From Terriglobales bacterium (GTDB lineage Bacteria > Acidobacteriota > Terriglobia > Terriglobales > Acidobacteriaceae): a stretch of 40,363 nucleotides of DNA. Positions 1 to 34,216 of this stretch are shown one piece after another. Numbering within the stretch: position 1 is the stretch's first letter; each line of letters starts with the position of its first letter. The stretch is taken from NCBI GenBank assembly GCA_035454605.1, contig DATIGQ010000135.1, positions 1 to 40,363 of the forward strand, given 5' to 3'. Below the pieces are notes generated by a model that saw only the letters and a list, made by a program, of their open reading frames with translations, was not told the origin of the DNA and did not search any database. Both the position numbers and the translations under genes were made by a program.

Positions 1-153
1 GAGGGCACCACCTGGTACCGGCACCGCATCTGGCCCGCGACCTATTGGCGGCAGTGGTCGGACTTCGCCATCCACCGCATCCACTTGCGCGTGCTGCGCC
101 ACATTCAGCGCCTTTCCGAGCAGGGTGCCGCGGTCCACACGCCCGAACCGTAG
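1..153 (+). CDS. C-terminal end of an unidentified protein (5' truncated)
   Basis: Reading frame 1 is open from the first base and ends at TAG 151-153, giving the last 50 residues of a protein whose start lies outside the window. The fragment is rich in Trp, Arg and His (WYRHRIWPATYWRQW) and ends in a polar tail. I do not recognise the family, and nothing in the fragment points to a function. It is codirectional with the hydrolase gene 48 bases downstream. The reading is supported by the uninterrupted frame and by the next gene starting just after the stop, but no more can be said. Confidence 0.5.
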   Translation, partial: EGTTWYRHRIWPATYWRQWSDFAIHRIHLRVLRHIQRLSEQGAAVHTPEP

Positions 154-178
154 AATTCTCTTTGCCGCCGGCCCGTCG

Positions 179-184
179 TATACT
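179..184 (+). promoter_or_regulatory. possible -10 box of the alpha/beta hydrolase gene
   Basis: TATACT matches the sigma-70 -10 consensus at five of six positions and lies 17 bases before the GTG start at 202. No convincing -35 hexamer is visible at the usual distance. Confidence 0.3.
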
Positions 185-201
185 GCGCCTCCGGAGCCGC
201 C

Positions 202-1002
202 GTGTCGGCAACCTCACTCAGGCGCCGAATGTCCTCGTTCCTGCTGACTCTCGCCGTCGTCTACGGGGTTGTCCTCGCTTATCTGTGGTTCTTCGGCGAC
301 ACCCTGGTGTACTTCCCGCCCTCGTCGAGCTACCGCGATGACGGCGACATCCTGAAGATTCCCGCCCGCGACGGCACGCGCCTTTCCGCCATCTACCTGG
401 CCAATCCCGAAGCGCGCTTCACGGTGCTTTTCACGCACGGTAACGCCGAGGACATCGGCCACAACGACTTCTTTCTCCACGCTCTCCACGACGCCGGCTT
501 TGCCGTGCTTGCTTGGGACTATCGTGGCTACGGCACCAGTGAAGGCCGGCCCTCGGAAGCCACGTTCTACAGCGATAGCGAGGACGCCTACGACTACCTC
601 ACCCGGCAGCTCGGCGTCCCGCCCGAGCGCGTCTTGCTTCTCGGGCGCTCGCTCGGCGGAGCCTCGGCGGTGCACGTCGCTTCTCTTAAACCGGTGGCCG
701 GGCTCGTTCTGGAAAGCACGTTCGTCTCCGGACGTCGCATGCTGGTGCGCTGGCCCATCTTCCCCTTCGATCGCTACCGCAGCCGCGACAAACTTCGCCA
801 GGTGCGCTGTCCGGTGTTCGTCCTCCACGGGACCTCGGATACCACCATTCCCTCCGAGCATGGCCGCTTGCTGTTCGAAGCCGCCAACCCGCCGAAGCAG
901 TCCTGGTGGGTCGAAGGCGCCGGCCACAACGACTTGTTTTTCGTCGCCGGCAAGGAGTACCTGCGCCGCCTGCGCGACTTTGCCGCCTCCCTGGGTTCCT
1001 AA
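202..1002 (+). CDS. alpha/beta hydrolase (BEM46/ABHD13-like), membrane-anchored
   Basis: This 266-residue protein has a hydrophobic N-terminal helix (about residues 11-30) that should anchor it in the membrane or act as an uncleaved signal. An alpha/beta hydrolase domain follows. Visible motifs are the oxyanion HGN at 79-81, the nucleophile elbow GRSLGG with Ser150, and candidate Asp213 and His242 completing the triad. The pattern resembles the BEM46/ABHD12-13 group of serine hydrolases. The substrate cannot be read from sequence; a lipid or acyl ester is a guess. GTG 202 was chosen because GGAG lies about six bases upstream; ATG 229 is the alternative and would start just before the helix. 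The gene is followed immediately by a heptamer repeat. Confidence 0.85.
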   Translation: MSATSLRRRMSSFLLTLAVVYGVVLAYLWFFGDTLVYFPPSSSYRDDGDILKIPARDGTRLSAIYLANPEARFTVLFTHGNAEDIGHNDFFLHALHDAGFAVLAWDYRGYGTSEGRPSEATFYSDSEDAYDYLTRQLGVPPERVLLLGRSLGGASAVHVASLKPVAGLVLESTFVSGRRMLVRWPIFPFDRYRSRDKLRQVRCPVFVLHGTSDTTIPSEHGRLLFEAANPPKQSWWVEGAGHNDLFFVAGKEYLRRLRDFAASLGS

Positions 1003-27643: not shown

Positions 27644-30600
27644 ATGACACGACGGAAGAGTGTGCGTTTCGCAGTTCCATGCCTGGTTCTGACGTTGTTC
27701 ACCCTGACCTCGACCACGTTCGCCCAGACAACGGGAAGCATTTTCGGCCGGGCGGCCGACCCGAGCGGCGCCGTGGTCGCCGGAGCATCGGTCACGGTCA
27801 CCAATCAGGCGACGGGGCAGTCACGACAGGCGACGACGGATGCCAACGGCGAGTACAACGTGCCGCTGTTGCCGGTGGGTACGTACTCGGTCACGGGCGA
27901 CAAGCAGGGATTCGAGAAATTCACGCAGCGTACTGTGGTGGTGCCCGTTAACACCAATGTGCGCGTGGACATGACCTTTGCGGTGGGTAAGGTAACGGAG
28001 GCAGTGGAAGTGGTGGGCGGCGCCGAGATCGTGGAAACGCGCAGCTCGACGCTCGGCAAGGTGATTGACGAGCGCAAGATTCGCGAACTGCCGTTGAACG
28101 ACCGCAACTTCCTGAATTTCGCCACCCTGCAGCCGGGCGTGGTTCCGGCCGCTGAGATCACCTCCAACAACACTCCGGATACCGGCGGCGGCGTGAACAA
28201 GGCGTTCCAGGTAAACGGTCTGCGGCTGCAGTCGAACAACTTCCTGCTGGACGGCGTGGACAACAACGAACCCTTCCTGGGAACCGCCATGGCCTCGCCC
28301 TCGCCGGATGCCCTGGACGAGTTCAAGATCCAGACCAGCCTGTACAGCGCGGAGTTTGGCGGCGGGGGCGGATCGATCGTCAACATCATTACCAAGGGCG
28401 GCACCAACGAGTGGCATGGAGTTGTGTACGAGTTTTTCCGCAACGACGCGCTGGACGCGCAGGGAACCTTTGCGTTGCAGAAGGAAAAGCTGCGCCGCAA
28501 CCAGTTCGGGTTCTCGCTCGGTGGTCCGATCCGGAAAGACAAGACGTTCATTTTCGGCAACTACGAAGGGTTCCGGAAGCGGGAAGGGCAAACCCAGCGC
28601 ACTACGGTGCCGACGCTGGTGGAACGCGGAGGAACAGTAGGAATCGCTCCGGGTACGGCCATGACCGCGCCGCAGGCCGGGCGGCTGAATGCGCGGCCGG
28701 GATGCGCGGGCGATATCACCGGGGCGGGCGGGACCGCTCCGGCGGATGGCGTGCTATGGTCGGCAGCGTTTCCCGGGGGTGTAATTCCGGTTTCCTGTTT
28801 CGACCCCTCGGCGGCCGCGATTCTCGACGAACTGATCCCGGAGCCGAATACCGGCACGAATCAATTCACCTCTTCGCCGGCCACGGCCAACAACAGTAAT
28901 CAATTCACGCTGCGGCTGGACCAGAATTTCTCCGACAAGAATTCGCTTTCGGTGCGTTACCACTTTCTGGATGGCGATGGCATGCGTTTCTTCACCAACA
29001 CGCTGTTCAATATTCCCATCCAAACACCGGATTTCCCGCTGGCTGACGAATTTCGCATTCAGAACCTGGCGGTCTCGGACACGCACCTTTTCTCGCCAAC
29101 GCTGACCAACGAGTTCCACTTCGGATTCAATCGGGGACTGTTCGACAGCGCCATTCCGGTGACGCCGCGCGATCCCGCGTCGTTCGGGTTTGTGTTGCCC
29201 TCCACCAAAGCCGTGAGCAACATGCCGCTGGTCGCCATCGCCGGCATGTCGTCGTACGGAACGTTCAACGATTCACCTTCGTTCCGGCGCGAGAACGTGT
29301 TCCAGTTCCAGGACAACGTGAACTGGGTGCGCGGGCGGCACACCATCAAGTTCGGGTTCTCGTACCTCAAGACGCAGATGGATATTCCTTCCAGCGACTC
29401 CATCGCAGAGGGCGCCTTTCTGTTCGTGCCCGACTCGACAGGCAACCCATTCGCCAACTTCCTGCTGGGTGAACCCAACCTGTTCTTCCAGGGAAGTGGC
29501 GTGACTACGCGCGAGTGGCGCTTCGACGCGTTCCACTGGTTCTTCCAGGATGACGTCCGGGTTACGCGTAACTTCACGCTGAACCTCGGCCTGCGCTACG
29601 AGCTGAACCGGCCGGCGACCGACACGCAGGACCGCGTGGTAGCTTTCCGGCCCGGGCAAACCTCTACGGTGAACACGGCAGCGTCCCCGGGACTGCTGTT
29701 CGTGGGCGACCCGGGAATCACGCGTTCCACCATCGAGACGGACAAGAACAACTTCGCTCCCCGCTTGGGCTTCGCCTGGGATGTGCGCGGCGACGGCAAG
29801 GTGAGTGTGCGCGGCGGCTACGGAATCTTCTACGACCGGGTGATCGGACTGGTGCCGTTCCAGTTCGGTCTGGTGCCGCCCTTCTTCCCCATCCCCACGC
29901 TGCCCAACCCGTTCATTGCGACCTTCAGCGATCCGTTCGGCGGTGGAAGCCCGTTCACCGGCCTCACGGCGCAGGAAGTGGCCGACCTGAACCTGTTCCC
30001 ACTGTTCTCCTTCGTGCAGGTGCTCGATCCCGGCTTCCGCTCGCCCTACGTGCAGCAGTGGAACACTACGGTGCAATGGGAGGCGGTGAAGGACCTGGTG
30101 TTCGAATTGGGCTACGTGGGTACGAAGTCCACCAAACTGGTGCAGGCCGTGAACCTCAACACGGACGCCAACCACGCCTTCGCCGCACCCTTCTTCCCGT
30201 TTTTCTTCCAGTTGAGCAATTACCAGACGACCGGCGCGGGGAACTTTCACGCCCTGCAGTTGAGCGCCAACAAGCGCTTCAGCCACGGGTTGACGCTGCT
30301 GAGCTCGTACACCTGGGGCCACTCCATCGACAACGCCTCGCAGCCGGTGAACTTCCTGAACCCGACGGGCGAAGCGCCCTTCCCGCAGAACCGCACGCGG
30401 CTGGACCTGGAACGGGCACGCTCTTCCTACGACGCCCGGCATCGCTGGGTAACCAGCTTCCTGTATGAACTGCCGTGGTTCCGGGACCGTCGCGACGCCG
30501 TGGGGCAAATCCTGGGTGGATGGAATACCAACGGTATTCTTACCGTGCAGTCGGGCGTACCGTTCACGCCACTGACCGGTGGGGATACGAATTGTGACGG

Positions 30601-30958
30601 AGTGGACAACTCGAGCGACCGGCCGAATCGCGTGGCCGACCCGTTTTCGGGCGTGCCATCCGGCTTCTTCTTCAACCCTGCGGCCTTTTCCGTGCCGGTG
30701 TGCGCGGATGGCACCGCAGGCCGCAACAGCATCGGCGGTCCCGGAATCACGAACTTTGACTGGTCGCTCAACAAGCGCTTTCAGATCACGGAGCGTACCA
30801 GGCTGGAATTCCGCACCGAGTTCTTCAACCTGTTCAACACGCCGTCCCTGGGCACGCCGGTCAACGTGGTGAGCAACCCACAGTTCGGTACGGTGCAAAA
30901 CCTGCGGCAGGGGACGAACGCGCGTCAAATCCAGTTTGGTTTGCGGCTGTCGTTCTAG
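27644..30958 (+). CDS. Oar-like TonB-dependent outer-membrane receptor with carboxypeptidase-regulatory domain
   Basis: A 1,104-residue outer-membrane protein. A signal peptide ends at FAQ (about residue 28). Next comes a carboxypeptidase-regulatory beta-sandwich (GSIFGRAADPSGAVVAGASV, TTDANGEYNVPLLPVGTYSV), then a plug domain (ITSNNTPDTGGGVNKAF, NNFLLDGVDNNEP), then a long barrel ending in FGLRLSF with the terminal Phe required for assembly. This architecture is expanded in Acidobacteriota and is related to Oar of Myxococcus. Such proteins probably bind polysaccharide or protein fragments, but ligands are rarely known. No TonB box is obvious. A clear terminator follows. Its place after the MFS gene may be coincidental. 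Confidence 0.95.
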   Translation: MTRRKSVRFAVPCLVLTLFTLTSTTFAQTTGSIFGRAADPSGAVVAGASVTVTNQATGQSRQATTDANGEYNVPLLPVGTYSVTGDKQGFEKFTQRTVVVPVNTNVRVDMTFAVGKVTEAVEVVGGAEIVETRSSTLGKVIDERKIRELPLNDRNFLNFATLQPGVVPAAEITSNNTPDTGGGVNKAFQVNGLRLQSNNFLLDGVDNNEPFLGTAMASPSPDALDEFKIQTSLYSAEFGGGGGSIVNIITKGGTNEWHGVVYEFFRNDALDAQGTFALQKEKLRRNQFGFSLGGPIRKDKTFIFGNYEGFRKREGQTQRTTVPTLVERGGTVGIAPGTAMTAPQAGRLNARPGCAGDITGAGGTAPADGVLWSAAFPGGVIPVSCFDPSAAAILDELIPEPNTGTNQFTSSPATANNSNQFTLRLDQNFSDKNSLSVRYHFLDGDGMRFFTNTLFNIPIQTPDFPLADEFRIQNLAVSDTHLFSPTLTNEFHFGFNRGLFDSAIPVTPRDPASFGFVLPSTKAVSNMPLVAIAGMSSYGTFNDSPSFRRENVFQFQDNVNWVRGRHTIKFGFSYLKTQMDIPSSDSIAEGAFLFVPDSTGNPFANFLLGEPNLFFQGSGVTTREWRFDAFHWFFQDDVRVTRNFTLNLGLRYELNRPATDTQDRVVAFRPGQTSTVNTAASPGLLFVGDPGITRSTIETDKNNFAPRLGFAWDVRGDGKVSVRGGYGIFYDRVIGLVPFQFGLVPPFFPIPTLPNPFIATFSDPFGGGSPFTGLTAQEVADLNLFPLFSFVQVLDPGFRSPYVQQWNTTVQWEAVKDLVFELGYVGTKSTKLVQAVNLNTDANHAFAAPFFPFFFQLSNYQTTGAGNFHALQLSANKRFSHGLTLLSSYTWGHSIDNASQPVNFLNPTGEAPFPQNRTRLDLERARSSYDARHRWVTSFLYELPWFRDRRDAVGQILGGWNTNGILTVQSGVPFTPLTGGDTNCDGVDNSSDRPNRVADPFSGVPSGFFFNPAAFSVPVCADGTAGRNSIGGPGITNFDWSLNKRFQITERTRLEFRTEFFNLFNTPSLGTPVNVVSNPQFGTVQNLRQGTNARQIQFGLRLSF

Positions 30959-31028: not shown

Positions 31029-31532
31029 TTAGGAGGCCGCGCGGCCTTGGCGCAATCCGCGCCAGAGGCCCAGGACGATTCCGGCCAGGCTCGCAACCGC
31101 GAGGGCCGCGCCTGCGGCTGCCAGGGCCTGAGGCAGAATGCCGGGAGAAAAGATCTCCGCAAACACGCCCGCGGGAAACAACCACGATGCGGCCACGAAC
31201 AGGATTGCCAGCCGCCGGCGCATGACCTCGGAGAGCGCCACCATCGGATAGAACAGGCCCACCAGCAGGATCACGTTGGCGAGCTTGAGGGTGTGGGTGT
31301 GGACGTCCACGGCACGCACGTAGGCGTAGTTCATGCGCTGAGCCTGGGTGAGCGCTGCCTGCGCTCCCGCCACATCGCCGGCCGCTGACGAAGCCAGCAG
31401 GTCGCGATACGATTCGCGCAACACCAGCAGCGGCTGGTGCTCTACCAGGTAGCCATACGCCGCGCCGAACAGGAGTCCGGCTACCAGCAGGAGCATGCCG
31501 CCGCCGAGAAGCACTTTCTCCGGGGACTTCAT
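31029..31532 (-). CDS. four-helix H-x-H membrane module protein (third copy of the module)
   Basis: A 167-residue membrane protein that is one module. Helix 1 is VLLGGGMLLLVAGLLFGAAYG, followed by a hydrophilic loop, then HTH (H78, H80), helix 2 (LKLANVILLVGLFYPMVAL), helix 3 (RRRLAILFVAASWLFPAGVF) and helix 4. It aligns with both halves of the upstream protein. Counting from the second His, E lies at +22, R at +27, A at +29 and S-x-L-x-P at +36 to +40 in all three copies. The start ATG overlaps the upstream stop codon (ATGA). I do not recognise the family. Paired membrane histidines suggest haem, quinone or metal binding, which is inference only. Confidence 0.8.
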   Translation of the reverse strand: MKSPEKVLLGGGMLLLVAGLLFGAAYGYLVEHQPLLVLRESYRDLLASSAAGDVAGAQAALTQAQRMNYAYVRAVDVHTHTLKLANVILLVGLFYPMVALSEVMRRRLAILFVAASWLFPAGVFAEIFSPGILPQALAAAGAALAVASLAGIVLGLWRGLRQGRAAS

Positions 31533-32593
31533 CCGGCACTCCCCTCGCGTGCGGCTTGCGCACCGGAATGCCGCACCAACCCGACCAGCATGGCCACGAG
31601 GGCTGCGATGGCCAAGGCTCCAGAAAGGTCGGCAAACGCGGCCGAGACCAAACCCACGATGGTGGCGATGAAGATGAAGACCGGCATCAGCGCCGAGCCC
31701 AAACAGAATACGCAGGCCCAGCGCAGCTTCCAGCGCTCGCTGAAGAAAACGAAGTTCTGCACAAAGCCGAGCAGCAGGGCCATGATCCCCATCTCGATGG
31801 CGTGCGAGTGCGCCGCCGCGGTGATGGCAATCTTCGATTGCAAGCCACGATAGGCAAGCACCGTCTCGCGCGCGGCGGGCGGGTCCTGGCGCGCGGCGGC
31901 GAGGCCCGATTCCAGCAACTGCCAGTGTTGCGGTTCCAGTTGCGTGACGAACTGCCAGGCCAGATACAAGCCGAAGGCCATCCCCGCCACGATGAGCACG
32001 CCGCCCGTGCGCAGCAGCAGCCGGCTGCTGGCGGAAGCCAGCAAGTCTGCAACCTGGGCGCGCAAAGCTGCGGTCAAGTCTTCCGCCGACCGCAATCCGG
32101 CGGCATAGGCCAGCACCGCGCCCATCACCAGGAAGCCGCCCAGATCCGAAACCCAGAGGGCCCACTCTCCCGCGTAGGCGCGCACGAACACGAACAGCGG
32201 CTGCAGCACCGATCCGGTGATGACCAGGATCGCCAGACGCCGCTTGCGGCGCTCGTCCATGGGCAGAACGGACTGCAAGACGGCCAACGTCAGTGCGAGG
32301 AATCCGAAAGCGATGATATGGGAGTGGGTGTTGACGATGCGCCCGCGGCGGTGAAGCATCTCCTCCACTCGCTCGTAGCCGGCCACGGCCGCAGCCGGGT
32401 CGCCACGGCCGACGGCCTCGGCGATGCCGGTCCACAAGCGCTTGATCTCGGCCGTACCCACATGGGAGATGAAGATGGCGTAGACCTCGCCCAGCAACAT
32501 GCCGGCGATGATGAGCAGGATGCCGCCGCACACCAGGATGCGGGCGGCGCTCATACGCCCGGCGAAGAACGGCAGCCGAGACTCCACCGTCAT
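31529..32593 (-). CDS. eight-helix membrane protein with two H-x-H modules
   Basis: A 354-residue membrane protein formed by internal duplication. Half 1 (about 19-168) has GG at 23-24, AGM, then HSH (H90, H92). Half 2 (about 195-340) has GG at 197-198, AGM, then HSH (H262, H264). The gap from the GG pair to the first His is 65-67 residues in all three modules of the operon. After the second His, E (+22), R (+27), A (+29) and S-x-L-x-P (+36 to +40) align without gaps. The linker at 170-192 is polar. The ATG overlaps the MBL stop codon, and the stop overlaps the next ATG, so the three genes are coupled. Function unknown; the repeated histidines resemble ligands for haem or metal. Confidence 0.8.
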   Translation of the reverse strand: MTVESRLPFFAGRMSAARILVCGGILLIIAGMLLGEVYAIFISHVGTAEIKRLWTGIAEAVGRGDPAAAVAGYERVEEMLHRRGRIVNTHSHIIAFGFLALTLAVLQSVLPMDERRKRRLAILVITGSVLQPLFVFVRAYAGEWALWVSDLGGFLVMGAVLAYAAGLRSAEDLTAALRAQVADLLASASSRLLLRTGGVLIVAGMAFGLYLAWQFVTQLEPQHWQLLESGLAAARQDPPAARETVLAYRGLQSKIAITAAAHSHAIEMGIMALLLGFVQNFVFFSERWKLRWACVFCLGSALMPVFIFIATIVGLVSAAFADLSGALAIAALVAMLVGLVRHSGAQAAREGSAG

Positions 32594-33531
32594 GGCTGCT
32601 TCAGTTCGGCGTAGGTGCGCTCGATGGCGTTCTTGATCCAGTTGGGATTGTCCCACTTGTACCGGGCCTGCACCTCGGGCGAGAGGGCGGCCACGACCTG
32701 CTCCGCCGACTGGCCCTGGGCCGCAAGCTCCTTCACGCGGCCGCGCAGCCAAGCCAGATACTCCTGGAGCGCAGTGATCTGCGAAGCGTCGCCGACCTCA
32801 CCATGGCCGGGGACGATAGTGGCGGGTTGCAATTGCTCAAGCCGGTTCAGGGCCTCGAGCCAACCGCGCGGGCTCGCGTCCGGATCGGGCATGATGGGGA
32901 AGAAGCGGTTCACCACCACATCACCAGCGAAGAGAATCTTCTGATTGGGCAGCCAGACCAGATTGTCGCCGCGGGTGTGCGCCGGTCCGTAATGAAGCAA
33001 GCGAACCAGCACTCCGCCGCCCAGATCGATCTCCAACTCATGCTCGAAGGCAATGTCAGCCGTAACCAGCTTCACCGGCTTGAGCAGTTCGGCGATCTGC
33101 GGGCTGAACCCGGTGAACATCTTGATGTAGTCGGCGCCTTTCTCGGCCAATTCTTCCTTCTGCGCCTTGGGAACGACGATGCGAGTGCCCTGCGGAAACG
33201 ATTGCGCGCCCATGCCGTGCTCGGGGTGGAAATGGGTGATGGTGAGGTAGAGGATTTCCTTGGACGTGAGCTTGCGAACCTCGTGCAGGACACGCTCGGC
33301 GTTGGCCGGACCCATGCCGGTATCCACCACCATCACCCCGCGGTCGCCCACCAGGATGCCGATGTTGGGCACCAGATTCACGCGGCGGTCGGAGATGACG
33401 TAGACCCCGTCGGCGACCTTTCGGGTCATCCCTTCCTCCACCATGGGCGCCGAATCCGCAAAGGCGGCAACCGACAGGACCGCCAACACCGTGGCGCCCA
33501 GCATGAGTTTCGGGAAACAGGTCCGGTTCAC
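32590..33531 (-). CDS. exported metallo-beta-lactamase-fold hydrolase
   Basis: A 313-residue MBL-fold protein with a signal peptide (LMLGATVLAVLSVAAFA), so probably periplasmic. Metal ligands are H100-x-H102-x-E104-H105 in THFHPEHGMG (the usual Asp is Glu), H185 in AHTRGDN, D204 in FAGDVVV, and H243 in PGHGEVG. The Asp-to-Glu change at motif 2 is uncommon but keeps a carboxylate. Family members hydrolyse thioesters, phosphodiesters, sulfates or lactones, or act in redox relays; the substrate is unknown. The C-terminal 70 residues (RGRVKELAAQGQSAEQVV...) are a helical extension. GTG 33531 is chosen because AGGAGG lies five bases upstream. It leads a three-gene coupled operon with two H-x-H membrane proteins. 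Confidence 0.88.
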   Translation of the reverse strand: MNRTCFPKLMLGATVLAVLSVAAFADSAPMVEEGMTRKVADGVYVISDRRVNLVPNIGILVGDRGVMVVDTGMGPANAERVLHEVRKLTSKEILYLTITHFHPEHGMGAQSFPQGTRIVVPKAQKEELAEKGADYIKMFTGFSPQIAELLKPVKLVTADIAFEHELEIDLGGGVLVRLLHYGPAHTRGDNLVWLPNQKILFAGDVVVNRFFPIMPDPDASPRGWLEALNRLEQLQPATIVPGHGEVGDASQITALQEYLAWLRGRVKELAAQGQSAEQVVAALSPEVQARYKWDNPNWIKNAIERTYAELKQP

Positions 33532-33751: not shown

Positions 33752-34216
33752 TTACAGGAAGCCGCGCAACTGGTCTTCTTCGAGCGCGACGTGGGCGGCA
33801 AGATTACGGGCCACCTGCCAGCCCTGCTCGCGAACGCCGGCGACGATGTCGGGAAGTTCATCCTCGGTGGCGCCGCGCAGTTGCTCCAGAGCGCTGCGGA
33901 AGTCACGCAGTTCGCCGCGCAGCGTCTCGTGCTGATACACCATCTCGCGGGCGAAGTTCGCCAGTTCGGGGCTGATGGTCGCTACTTCCTCCTGCAACCA
34001 GGTCTCTTCGCGGGAAAAGTGATCGGGGATGGTCTCGCACAGCCGGACGCCGTAGCGGTAGAGGTCGCCGGTATCGCTGAGCTGCGCGAAGCTCCGGCCG
34101 TAGCGCTCCAGGCTGTCCAGAGCGTAGGCCAGATCGGCCAGATCGGCCATCACCGATTCGTGGTCATCGTGGACGCGCTCGCATTCCGCCCAAAAGTTCA
34201 TGCCAGATGTGGTCAT
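33752..34216 (-). CDS. hemerythrin-like domain protein
   Basis: A 154-residue four-helix protein of the hemerythrin HHE type. Candidate diiron ligands are H16/H19 (RVHDDHE), H66 and E70 (PDHFSREE), H96 (YQHETLRGE), and H142 with E146/E147 (AAHVALEED). The spacing is typical of single-domain bacterial hemerythrins, which bind or sense oxygen or nitric oxide or repair iron centres. There is no signal peptide, so it is cytoplasmic. ATG 34216 follows GAGG. Two GTGA-N6-TCAC sites, 22 bases apart, lie 74-109 bases upstream, so a CRP/FNR-family regulator probably controls it. It is codirectional with the MBL operon, 220 bases upstream of it. Confidence 0.85.
   Translation of the reverse strand: MTTSGMNFWAECERVHDDHESVMADLADLAYALDSLERYGRSFAQLSDTGDLYRYGVRLCETIPDHFSREETWLQEEVATISPELANFAREMVYQHETLRGELRDFRSALEQLRGATEDELPDIVAGVREQGWQVARNLAAHVALEEDQLRGFL

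Follow-up and report, generated by a model that had tools for sequence, protein, structure and literature searches.

A family of paired membrane proteins with three H-x-H modules, related in sequence to styrene oxide isomerase and probably haem-binding

The window, by which we mean the whole stretch of 40,363 nucleotides analysed here, is an entire contig of a 3.29 Mb genome of a Terriglobales bacterium and carries three genes on its minus strand in the order MBL-memA-memB. As the sequence-only reading had described, both junctions are ATGA overlaps, the one with the MBL gene included. The gene for the MBL-fold hydrolase (32590..33531) encodes a protein with an HFHPEH metal motif and a signal-like N-terminus, both apparent from its sequence, and the earlier identification as an MBL-fold protein agrees with a Pfam Lactamase_B match (E 2.8e-24); a match to NCBIfam TIGR04559 (E 3.3e-43, 148 bits) stays under that family's cut-off of 280. 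MemA (31529..32593, 354 aa) has eight membrane helices and comprises modules M1 (32084..32551, approximately MemA residues 15-170) and M2 (31544..32038, approximately residues 186-350), and MemB (31029..31532, 167 aa) comprises module M3, all on the minus strand. The modules are about 160 residues long, and their H-x-H motifs lie at 32318..32326 in M1 (H90 and H92, MemA 90-92), 31802..31810 in M2 (H262 and H264, MemA 262-264) and 31293..31301 in M3 (H78 and H80, MemB 78-80). Convergent with memB, a large receptor gene occupies 27644..30958 on the plus strand; from its sequence features it is putatively TonB-type (Oar-like), and by clustering it groups with the receptor genes that adjoin memA-memB in relatives. 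A hemerythrin-family gene (33752-34216) is found near the MBL gene, and a second copy of the system is present elsewhere in the same genome (contig C69).

The similarity among the three window modules exceeds chance by a wide margin: local alignment under BLOSUM62 gives scores of 168 (M1-M2), 163 (M1-M3) and 129 (M2-M3), and shuffles that keep the hydrophobic pattern have means of 37-40 and maxima of 71, 104 and 93, respectively, with 0 of 2000 reaching the real score in each of the three pairs. This bears out the earlier recognition of three copies of one four-helix H-x-H module on two membrane genes, together with its details, namely that, counted from the second His, E at +22, R at +27, A at +29, S at +36, L at +38 and P at +40 recur ungapped in all three modules and that Gly-Gly and H-x-H are about 65-67 residues apart in each. 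Across the 51 complete loci, the motif keeps its two His in 153 of 153 modules (51/51 for each of M1, M2 and M3); these counts leave out L045, L055, L056, L062, L065, L069 and L070, which are cut or split, the fusion L054, and L010, L011 and L012. Helix 1 carries another His at its end in 51/51 M1 and 50/51 M3. Window MemA lacks D36, N46, E81, K86, D88, H139 and E310, each of which is conserved in at least 45 of the 51 rows (45/51 for H139 of M1), and the window copies retain every H-x-H and both helix-1 His; by its sequence, the window pair is best described as a diverged paralogue of the family. In an unrooted FastTree phylogeny, the 153 modules fall exactly into M1, M2 and M3 clades of 51 members each (supports 0.974, 0.971 and 0.991), so that a single triplication preceded the whole family. 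M3 mostly lacks the Gly at +7 (8/51) and the Pro at +18 (2/51) that are common to styrene oxide isomerase (SOI), M1 and M2.

MemA matches were detected in 3 of 297 genomes of the phylum, the window's own genome included, and matches to the module profile in 5 of 396 genomes, of which one (G283) was marginal at 8.3e-4. A pattern-plus-tblastn scan of a collection of 84,980 species yielded 58 loci, 52 of them acidobacterial by name and six gammaproteobacterial (L058, L059, L061, L063, L066 and L067). None of six pattern stretches examined for viral relatives was confirmed. When the module HMM was run on six frames of 62 stretches (the 58 loci, the window, L010, L011 and L012, with L011 being identical in contig to L034), a 2+1 layout of one two-module frame and one single-module frame was observed in 54. 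All three modules share one frame in L054, which is known from a single metagenome-assembled genome, and are spread over three frames in L065; L012 has only a third module, whose helix 1 is short, and the five other stretches that depart from the layout run to contig or stretch ends.

Neighbouring genes were counted by HMM on six frames at any distance within 61 stretches (58 scan loci, the window, L010 and L012), and since many stretches are short, the counts are lower bounds. The common partners are the TonB-type receptor (at least 48), molybdenum hydroxylase subunits (XdhM at least 38, XdhS at least 37, XdhL at least 34), CoxG (at least 35) and a luciferase-type oxidoreductase (LLM, at least 32); further neighbours are M20 (at least 33), PanE (at least 32), M24 (at least 31), GntR (at least 23), flavin reductase and CofG/H (at least 18 each), Mo-FeS-NrfD genes (at least 5) and MBL (at least 3). 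A CoxLMS-type or Mo-FeS gene occurs in at least 41 of the 61. The family is a marker of catabolic gene clusters of a redox kind, most of them from Acidobacteriota, and the redox system proposed in the sequence-only reading is plausible from these usual neighbours. In several loci, genes for flavin reductase, luciferase-type oxidoreductase, MemA, MemB and molybdenum hydroxylase follow one another in this order, and the best NCBIfam match of the flavin reductase is StyB (E 3.1e-40, under its cut-off). Considering that 20 of the 61 stretches have no Mo gene in the available sequence and that in the window no usual redox partner adjoins memA-memB, no electron partner is fixed. The receptor is missing from 13 stretches, some of them cut, including all six gammaproteobacterial ones, two of which (L066 and L067) have another receptor-like gene (cluster c57) named by sequence only.

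The coupling to an exported MBL protein that had been put forward for the window did not prove general. The arrangement MBL-MemA-MemB recurs only in L064, which also shares the convergent receptor gene and comes from the same isolate as the standard locus L016, and in L015 the MBL gene lies downstream of the receptor gene. Co-occurrence of MBL and membrane genes in other genomes was thus largely not found; the MBL-fold hydrolase is a local partner of the window copy and not of the family at large, and with MBL in 3 of 61 stretches we rejected the coupling as a core feature. The hemerythrin is indeed encoded nearby, as had been pointed out, but phmmer (E 1e-3) finds no relative of it in any of the 61 remaining stretches of the 62.

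Window MemA and MemB have no notable match in Pfam or NCBIfam, in keeping with the earlier remark that the module was not recognisable, and 51 MemA and 51 MemB relatives have no Pfam family assignment among the families listed. Weak and scattered matches to DUF4184 (E 0.0033, 3/51 MemB), DUF202 (E 0.0041, 8/51 MemB) and Claudin (E 0.0096, 2/51 MemA) were taken as chance, as was the one match of a sequence profile to the PDB, a Cox5c chain at E 0.11 covering the helix 1 region only. The window proteins have no match to the oxidase family PF00115 at E 1, and this family is absent among all 23 families listed for the 51 MemA and among the best 25 of 39 for the 51 MemB. MAPEG is not matched in Pfam by the window proteins and is not among the families listed for the relatives, DUF423 is not matched among the families listed for the 51 MemA and 51 MemB, and the DUF2871 gathering score was not reached (one of 51 MemB at E 0.077, and no MemA among the families listed). 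What is new here is a 2+1 family that has no Pfam or NCBIfam name, whose units all carry H-x-H and which is linked to SOI by sequence; among the matches listed in the open-licence literature, we found no description of the family or of a link between SOI and oxidases.

The sequence-wise strongest relative of the module is SOI (StyC; PDB 8pnu and 8pnv), of which the module is, as judged by profile comparison, a remote homologue. A thin SOI profile of five or six sequences (five StyC proteins and the acidobacterial SOI-like protein L149) gave P 4.9e-6 over 127 columns against the pooled modules and 7.2e-6 when the His columns were masked, and against single modules it gave P 2.7e-4 (M1), 1.8e-5 (M2) and 8.3e-4 (M3). 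As controls, reversed SOI gave P 0.22-0.52, 33 neighbour families, mostly soluble proteins or spurious frames, gave a best P of 0.073, and 19 membrane families, of which 17 were single sequences, gave a best P of 0.02 against the modules and 0.013 against SOI. The haem b ligand of SOI, H58, aligns with the first His of H-x-H, and of the haem, metal or quinone centre proposed in the sequence-only reading it is haem that is favoured by this homology. MemA-MemB thus probably binds haem and represents a family that still has no name. SOI and the modules have in common a four-helix unit, a threefold arrangement, a sequence relationship over helices 1-4 and, where helix 2 begins, the His that is the haem ligand in SOI. 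However, SOI is one short chain that forms a homotrimer, whereas MemA-MemB has three diverged units over two chains, each with a second His, which occupies the SOI G60 position in 153/153 modules, with a longer helix 1-2 hairpin, and without N64, D95, N99 and Y103, each of which is kept in 0/153 modules at its ungapped offset from the first His.

Oxidase sequences gave P 0.018-0.91 in 16 comparisons (four module profiles against four overlapping oxidase sets). The module H-x-H fell on the H-x-H of oxidase helix 10 in seven of these, four of them with the pooled profile, and the other nine were without this register; in eight comparisons rerun with His masked, P was 0.032-0.45 and the helix 10 register was not recovered as such. 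Because there is no significant sequence relationship to the oxidases, the link with them rests on the fold, and only the fold is claimed. DUF2871 and NnrS have been linked to the oxidase fold; against the pooled modules, a DUF2871-like set, in which three of five rows are oxidase-length proteins, gave P 0.038 and an NnrS profile gave P 0.29, and neither is convincing. A DUF2871-like protein under the family cut-off (L155) has one four-helix unit with H-x-H. A DUF423 profile (5 of 15 rows) gave P 0.0011 against the pooled modules, which leaves room for relatives other than SOI; against M2, where mostly helices 3-4 aligned, it gave P 0.25, and against SOI 0.35. The score with the pooled modules is of interest because one study proposes that YgdD forms an oxidase-like trimer, and describes the four-helix homotrimers of YgdD/DUF423 and MAPEG as resembling the oxidase core (PMC4602095).

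AlphaFold2 models of window MemA (pLDDT 92.1, pTM 0.88) and of the L054 fusion (pLDDT 90.4, pTM 0.88) were obtained without cofactors. The folding alignment comprised 55 of 102 rows, which a greedy script picked for correct module placement by MAFFT and among which the MemB rows are out of place for a few residues at the N-terminus. Each module is predicted to form a hairpin of two long helices (about 44-51 residues) and two shorter helices, with H-x-H within helix 2, and in these models the long hairpin must leave the membrane. A charged loop resembling SERWKRR after helix 2 suggests a cytoplasmic loop, which would place H-x-H towards the outer side. Foldseek returned no match at the E 0.001 mark for either model. 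For MemA, an NO reductase came first (E 0.068) and several oxidases were listed, together with mPGES-1 (probability 0.99, E 0.34), SOI (probability 0.95, rank 25) and unrelated transporters and receptors. For the fusion, rows 1-27 were chains of oxidases, NO reductases or respiratory supercomplexes (E 1.9e-3 to 0.049), with TM-scores of only about 0.2. VIA-align, which re-aligns Foldseek candidates only, had an oxidase or NO reductase in 50 of 50 rows shown for each model, with Z 12.8-19.5 for MemA (best 4.2 A over 271 residues, M1 and M2 aligned) and 12.3-16.6 for the fusion (best 4.2 A over 277 residues, only M1 and M2 aligned); since helical bundles may reach Z of about 13-14 without relationship, as noted for VIA, the upper values matter most. 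SOI is not among the VIA rows shown, which is uninformative. The predicted fold resembles that of haem-copper oxidase subunit I, NorB and CcoN, with H-x-H near a helix start comparable to helix 10, but the CuB ligands of these enzymes were not found in the modules. In oxidases, these ligands include two His on helix 3 of the middle arc, and no such CuB-type pair is among the helix 3 residues conserved in 80% of rows.

Taken together, these results lead us to favour, with a rough probability of 0.4 for the whole reading, a pseudo-trimeric membrane cytochrome whose bis-His haems serve redox enzymes. In oxidase helix 10, H-x-H serves two haems, one on each side. The relationship to SOI and the predicted fold make it very likely that MemA and MemB would together form one twelve-helix, pseudo-threefold protein of three SOI-related four-helix units. 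In SOI, ferric haem b lies at each trimer interface with H58 of one subunit as axial ligand, N64, D95, N99 and Y103 of the other subunit line the open side of the haem, and an EPR species may reflect imidazole bound as the sixth ligand (PMC11374702). By homology, haem b would quite likely lie between neighbouring modules, with the first His of one of them as its ligand in the place of SOI H58. It might then be, at a little less than even odds, that the second His of the neighbouring module closes the sixth site to give bis-His low-spin haems; at the SOI G60 position, this residue would be one turn before N64 and on the substrate side of the haem. Bis-His sites carry electrons rather than bind substrate, which makes a membrane cytochrome the most likely interpretation. 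As a tentative suggestion from the gene neighbourhood, the cytochrome could pass electrons for adjoining catabolic oxidoreductases, such as CoxLMS-type Mo hydroxylases or Mo-FeS-NrfD complexes. In the window, a diverged paralogue of the unit is paired with an exported MBL hydrolase instead.

The same homology to SOI and its haem ligand could also be read as evidence for a heteromeric epoxide isomerase, in which an interface ferric haem b would act as a Lewis acid as in SOI. A monooxygenase would supply the epoxide, the complex would rearrange it to an aldehyde or ketone, and this product would go on to be oxidised by the Mo hydroxylase; several loci do have a gene order that resembles the StyA-StyB-StyC-StyD styrene pathway. 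However, the luciferase-type gene (32/61 stretches) and the flavin reductase (18/61) are not constant partners, the open side carries the second His, and the four residues missing from every module are described as important or essential in SOI (PMC11374702). With these catalytic residues absent and a second His at the G60 position, the cytochrome is favoured, and we regard an isomerase as unlikely. Equally, H-x-H could combine with the helix-1 His, present in nearly all M1 and M3, into a non-haem metal, quinone or substrate site, or the protein could transport a compound imported by the receptor encoded in 48 of the 61 stretches. The relationship to SOI, which points to haem, and the location of H-x-H inside helix 2 speak against this explanation, as do the 13 stretches devoid of a receptor, and it too appears improbable to a similar degree. 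A divergent haem-copper oxidase or NO reductase acting on O2 or NO would account for the VIA fold matches, but, considering the lack of PF00115 matches within the scope given above, the range of P values with oxidase sequences and the finding that no helix-3 His, H139 of M1 included, is shared by all modules as a CuB site would require, it is already disfavoured and seems highly improbable.

The family joins a small group of four-helix units with a haem or oxidase-like fold and ties SOI to that group; for SOI, its authors' DALI search had turned up no substantial similarity with other proteins (PMC11374702). It is conceivable, albeit rather doubtful, that MemA-MemB represents an independent fusion of an SOI-like haem homotrimer of the kind also underlying the oxidase core, with a complete H-x-H, a potential bis-His site, at all three interfaces and in opposite circular order. 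The conserved units of the oxidase superfamily are reportedly the subject of a paper by Pei et al. 2014. Were that independent fusion real, MemA-MemB would represent a present-day tri-haem counterpart of an oxidase core whose other sites had not yet been lost or converted. Distinct homologous modules on two chains, together with the natural fusion L054, offer a tractable test of how an oxidase-like core arises from a trimer. In the VIA alignments, M1-M2 spans the oxidase chain nearly end to end (e.g., model 14..350 on CcoN 12..467), and, judged from the aligned ranges alone, M1 would correspond to the first oxidase arc and M2 to the third, while M3 would take the place of the second. The module order thus appears, in these models, to be the reverse circular order of the oxidase arcs, which would explain the poor superposition of the sequential three-module Foldseek match of the fusion.

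A second copy of the module genes is present in the window's own genome (locus L010, contig C69, 3575-18070), where a TonB-type receptor gene and a luciferase-type gene precede it, two LigB-like genes also lie upstream, and F420-biosynthesis-like genes (CofG, CofD, CofC, CofE, CofH, and npdG-like) are found on the downstream side, all of these names being based on sequence and clustering. In L012 (8424-8855), the third module occurs alone and its helix 1 is shortened; it adjoins a receptor gene and anthranilate-/kynurenine-type catabolism-like genes, and may be either a remnant or a separate form. In L065 (4728-6121), the three modules occupy one separate reading frame each, which could reflect either genuine split genes or assembly frameshifts. 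By examining the hemerythrin-family protein (PF01814) encoded in the window at 33752-34216 on the minus strand, we detected no relatives across the other 61 stretches.

A four-helix protein similar to styrene oxide isomerase (SOI) was identified in a different acidobacterial genome (L149/L154, 7833-8381; E 5e-10). The haem-ligand His and NG are present in this protein but H-x-H is not, and its gene is located immediately 5' of that for a 457-aa FAD monooxygenase-like protein. Locus L155 encodes one four-helix protein bearing AHTHVILVG, with a weak match to DUF2871; it is possible that this protein is a one-unit relative of the oxidase fold. The window's genome also contains an NnrS-family protein gene (L179, G000:C29:10596-11822; E 1.8e-16).
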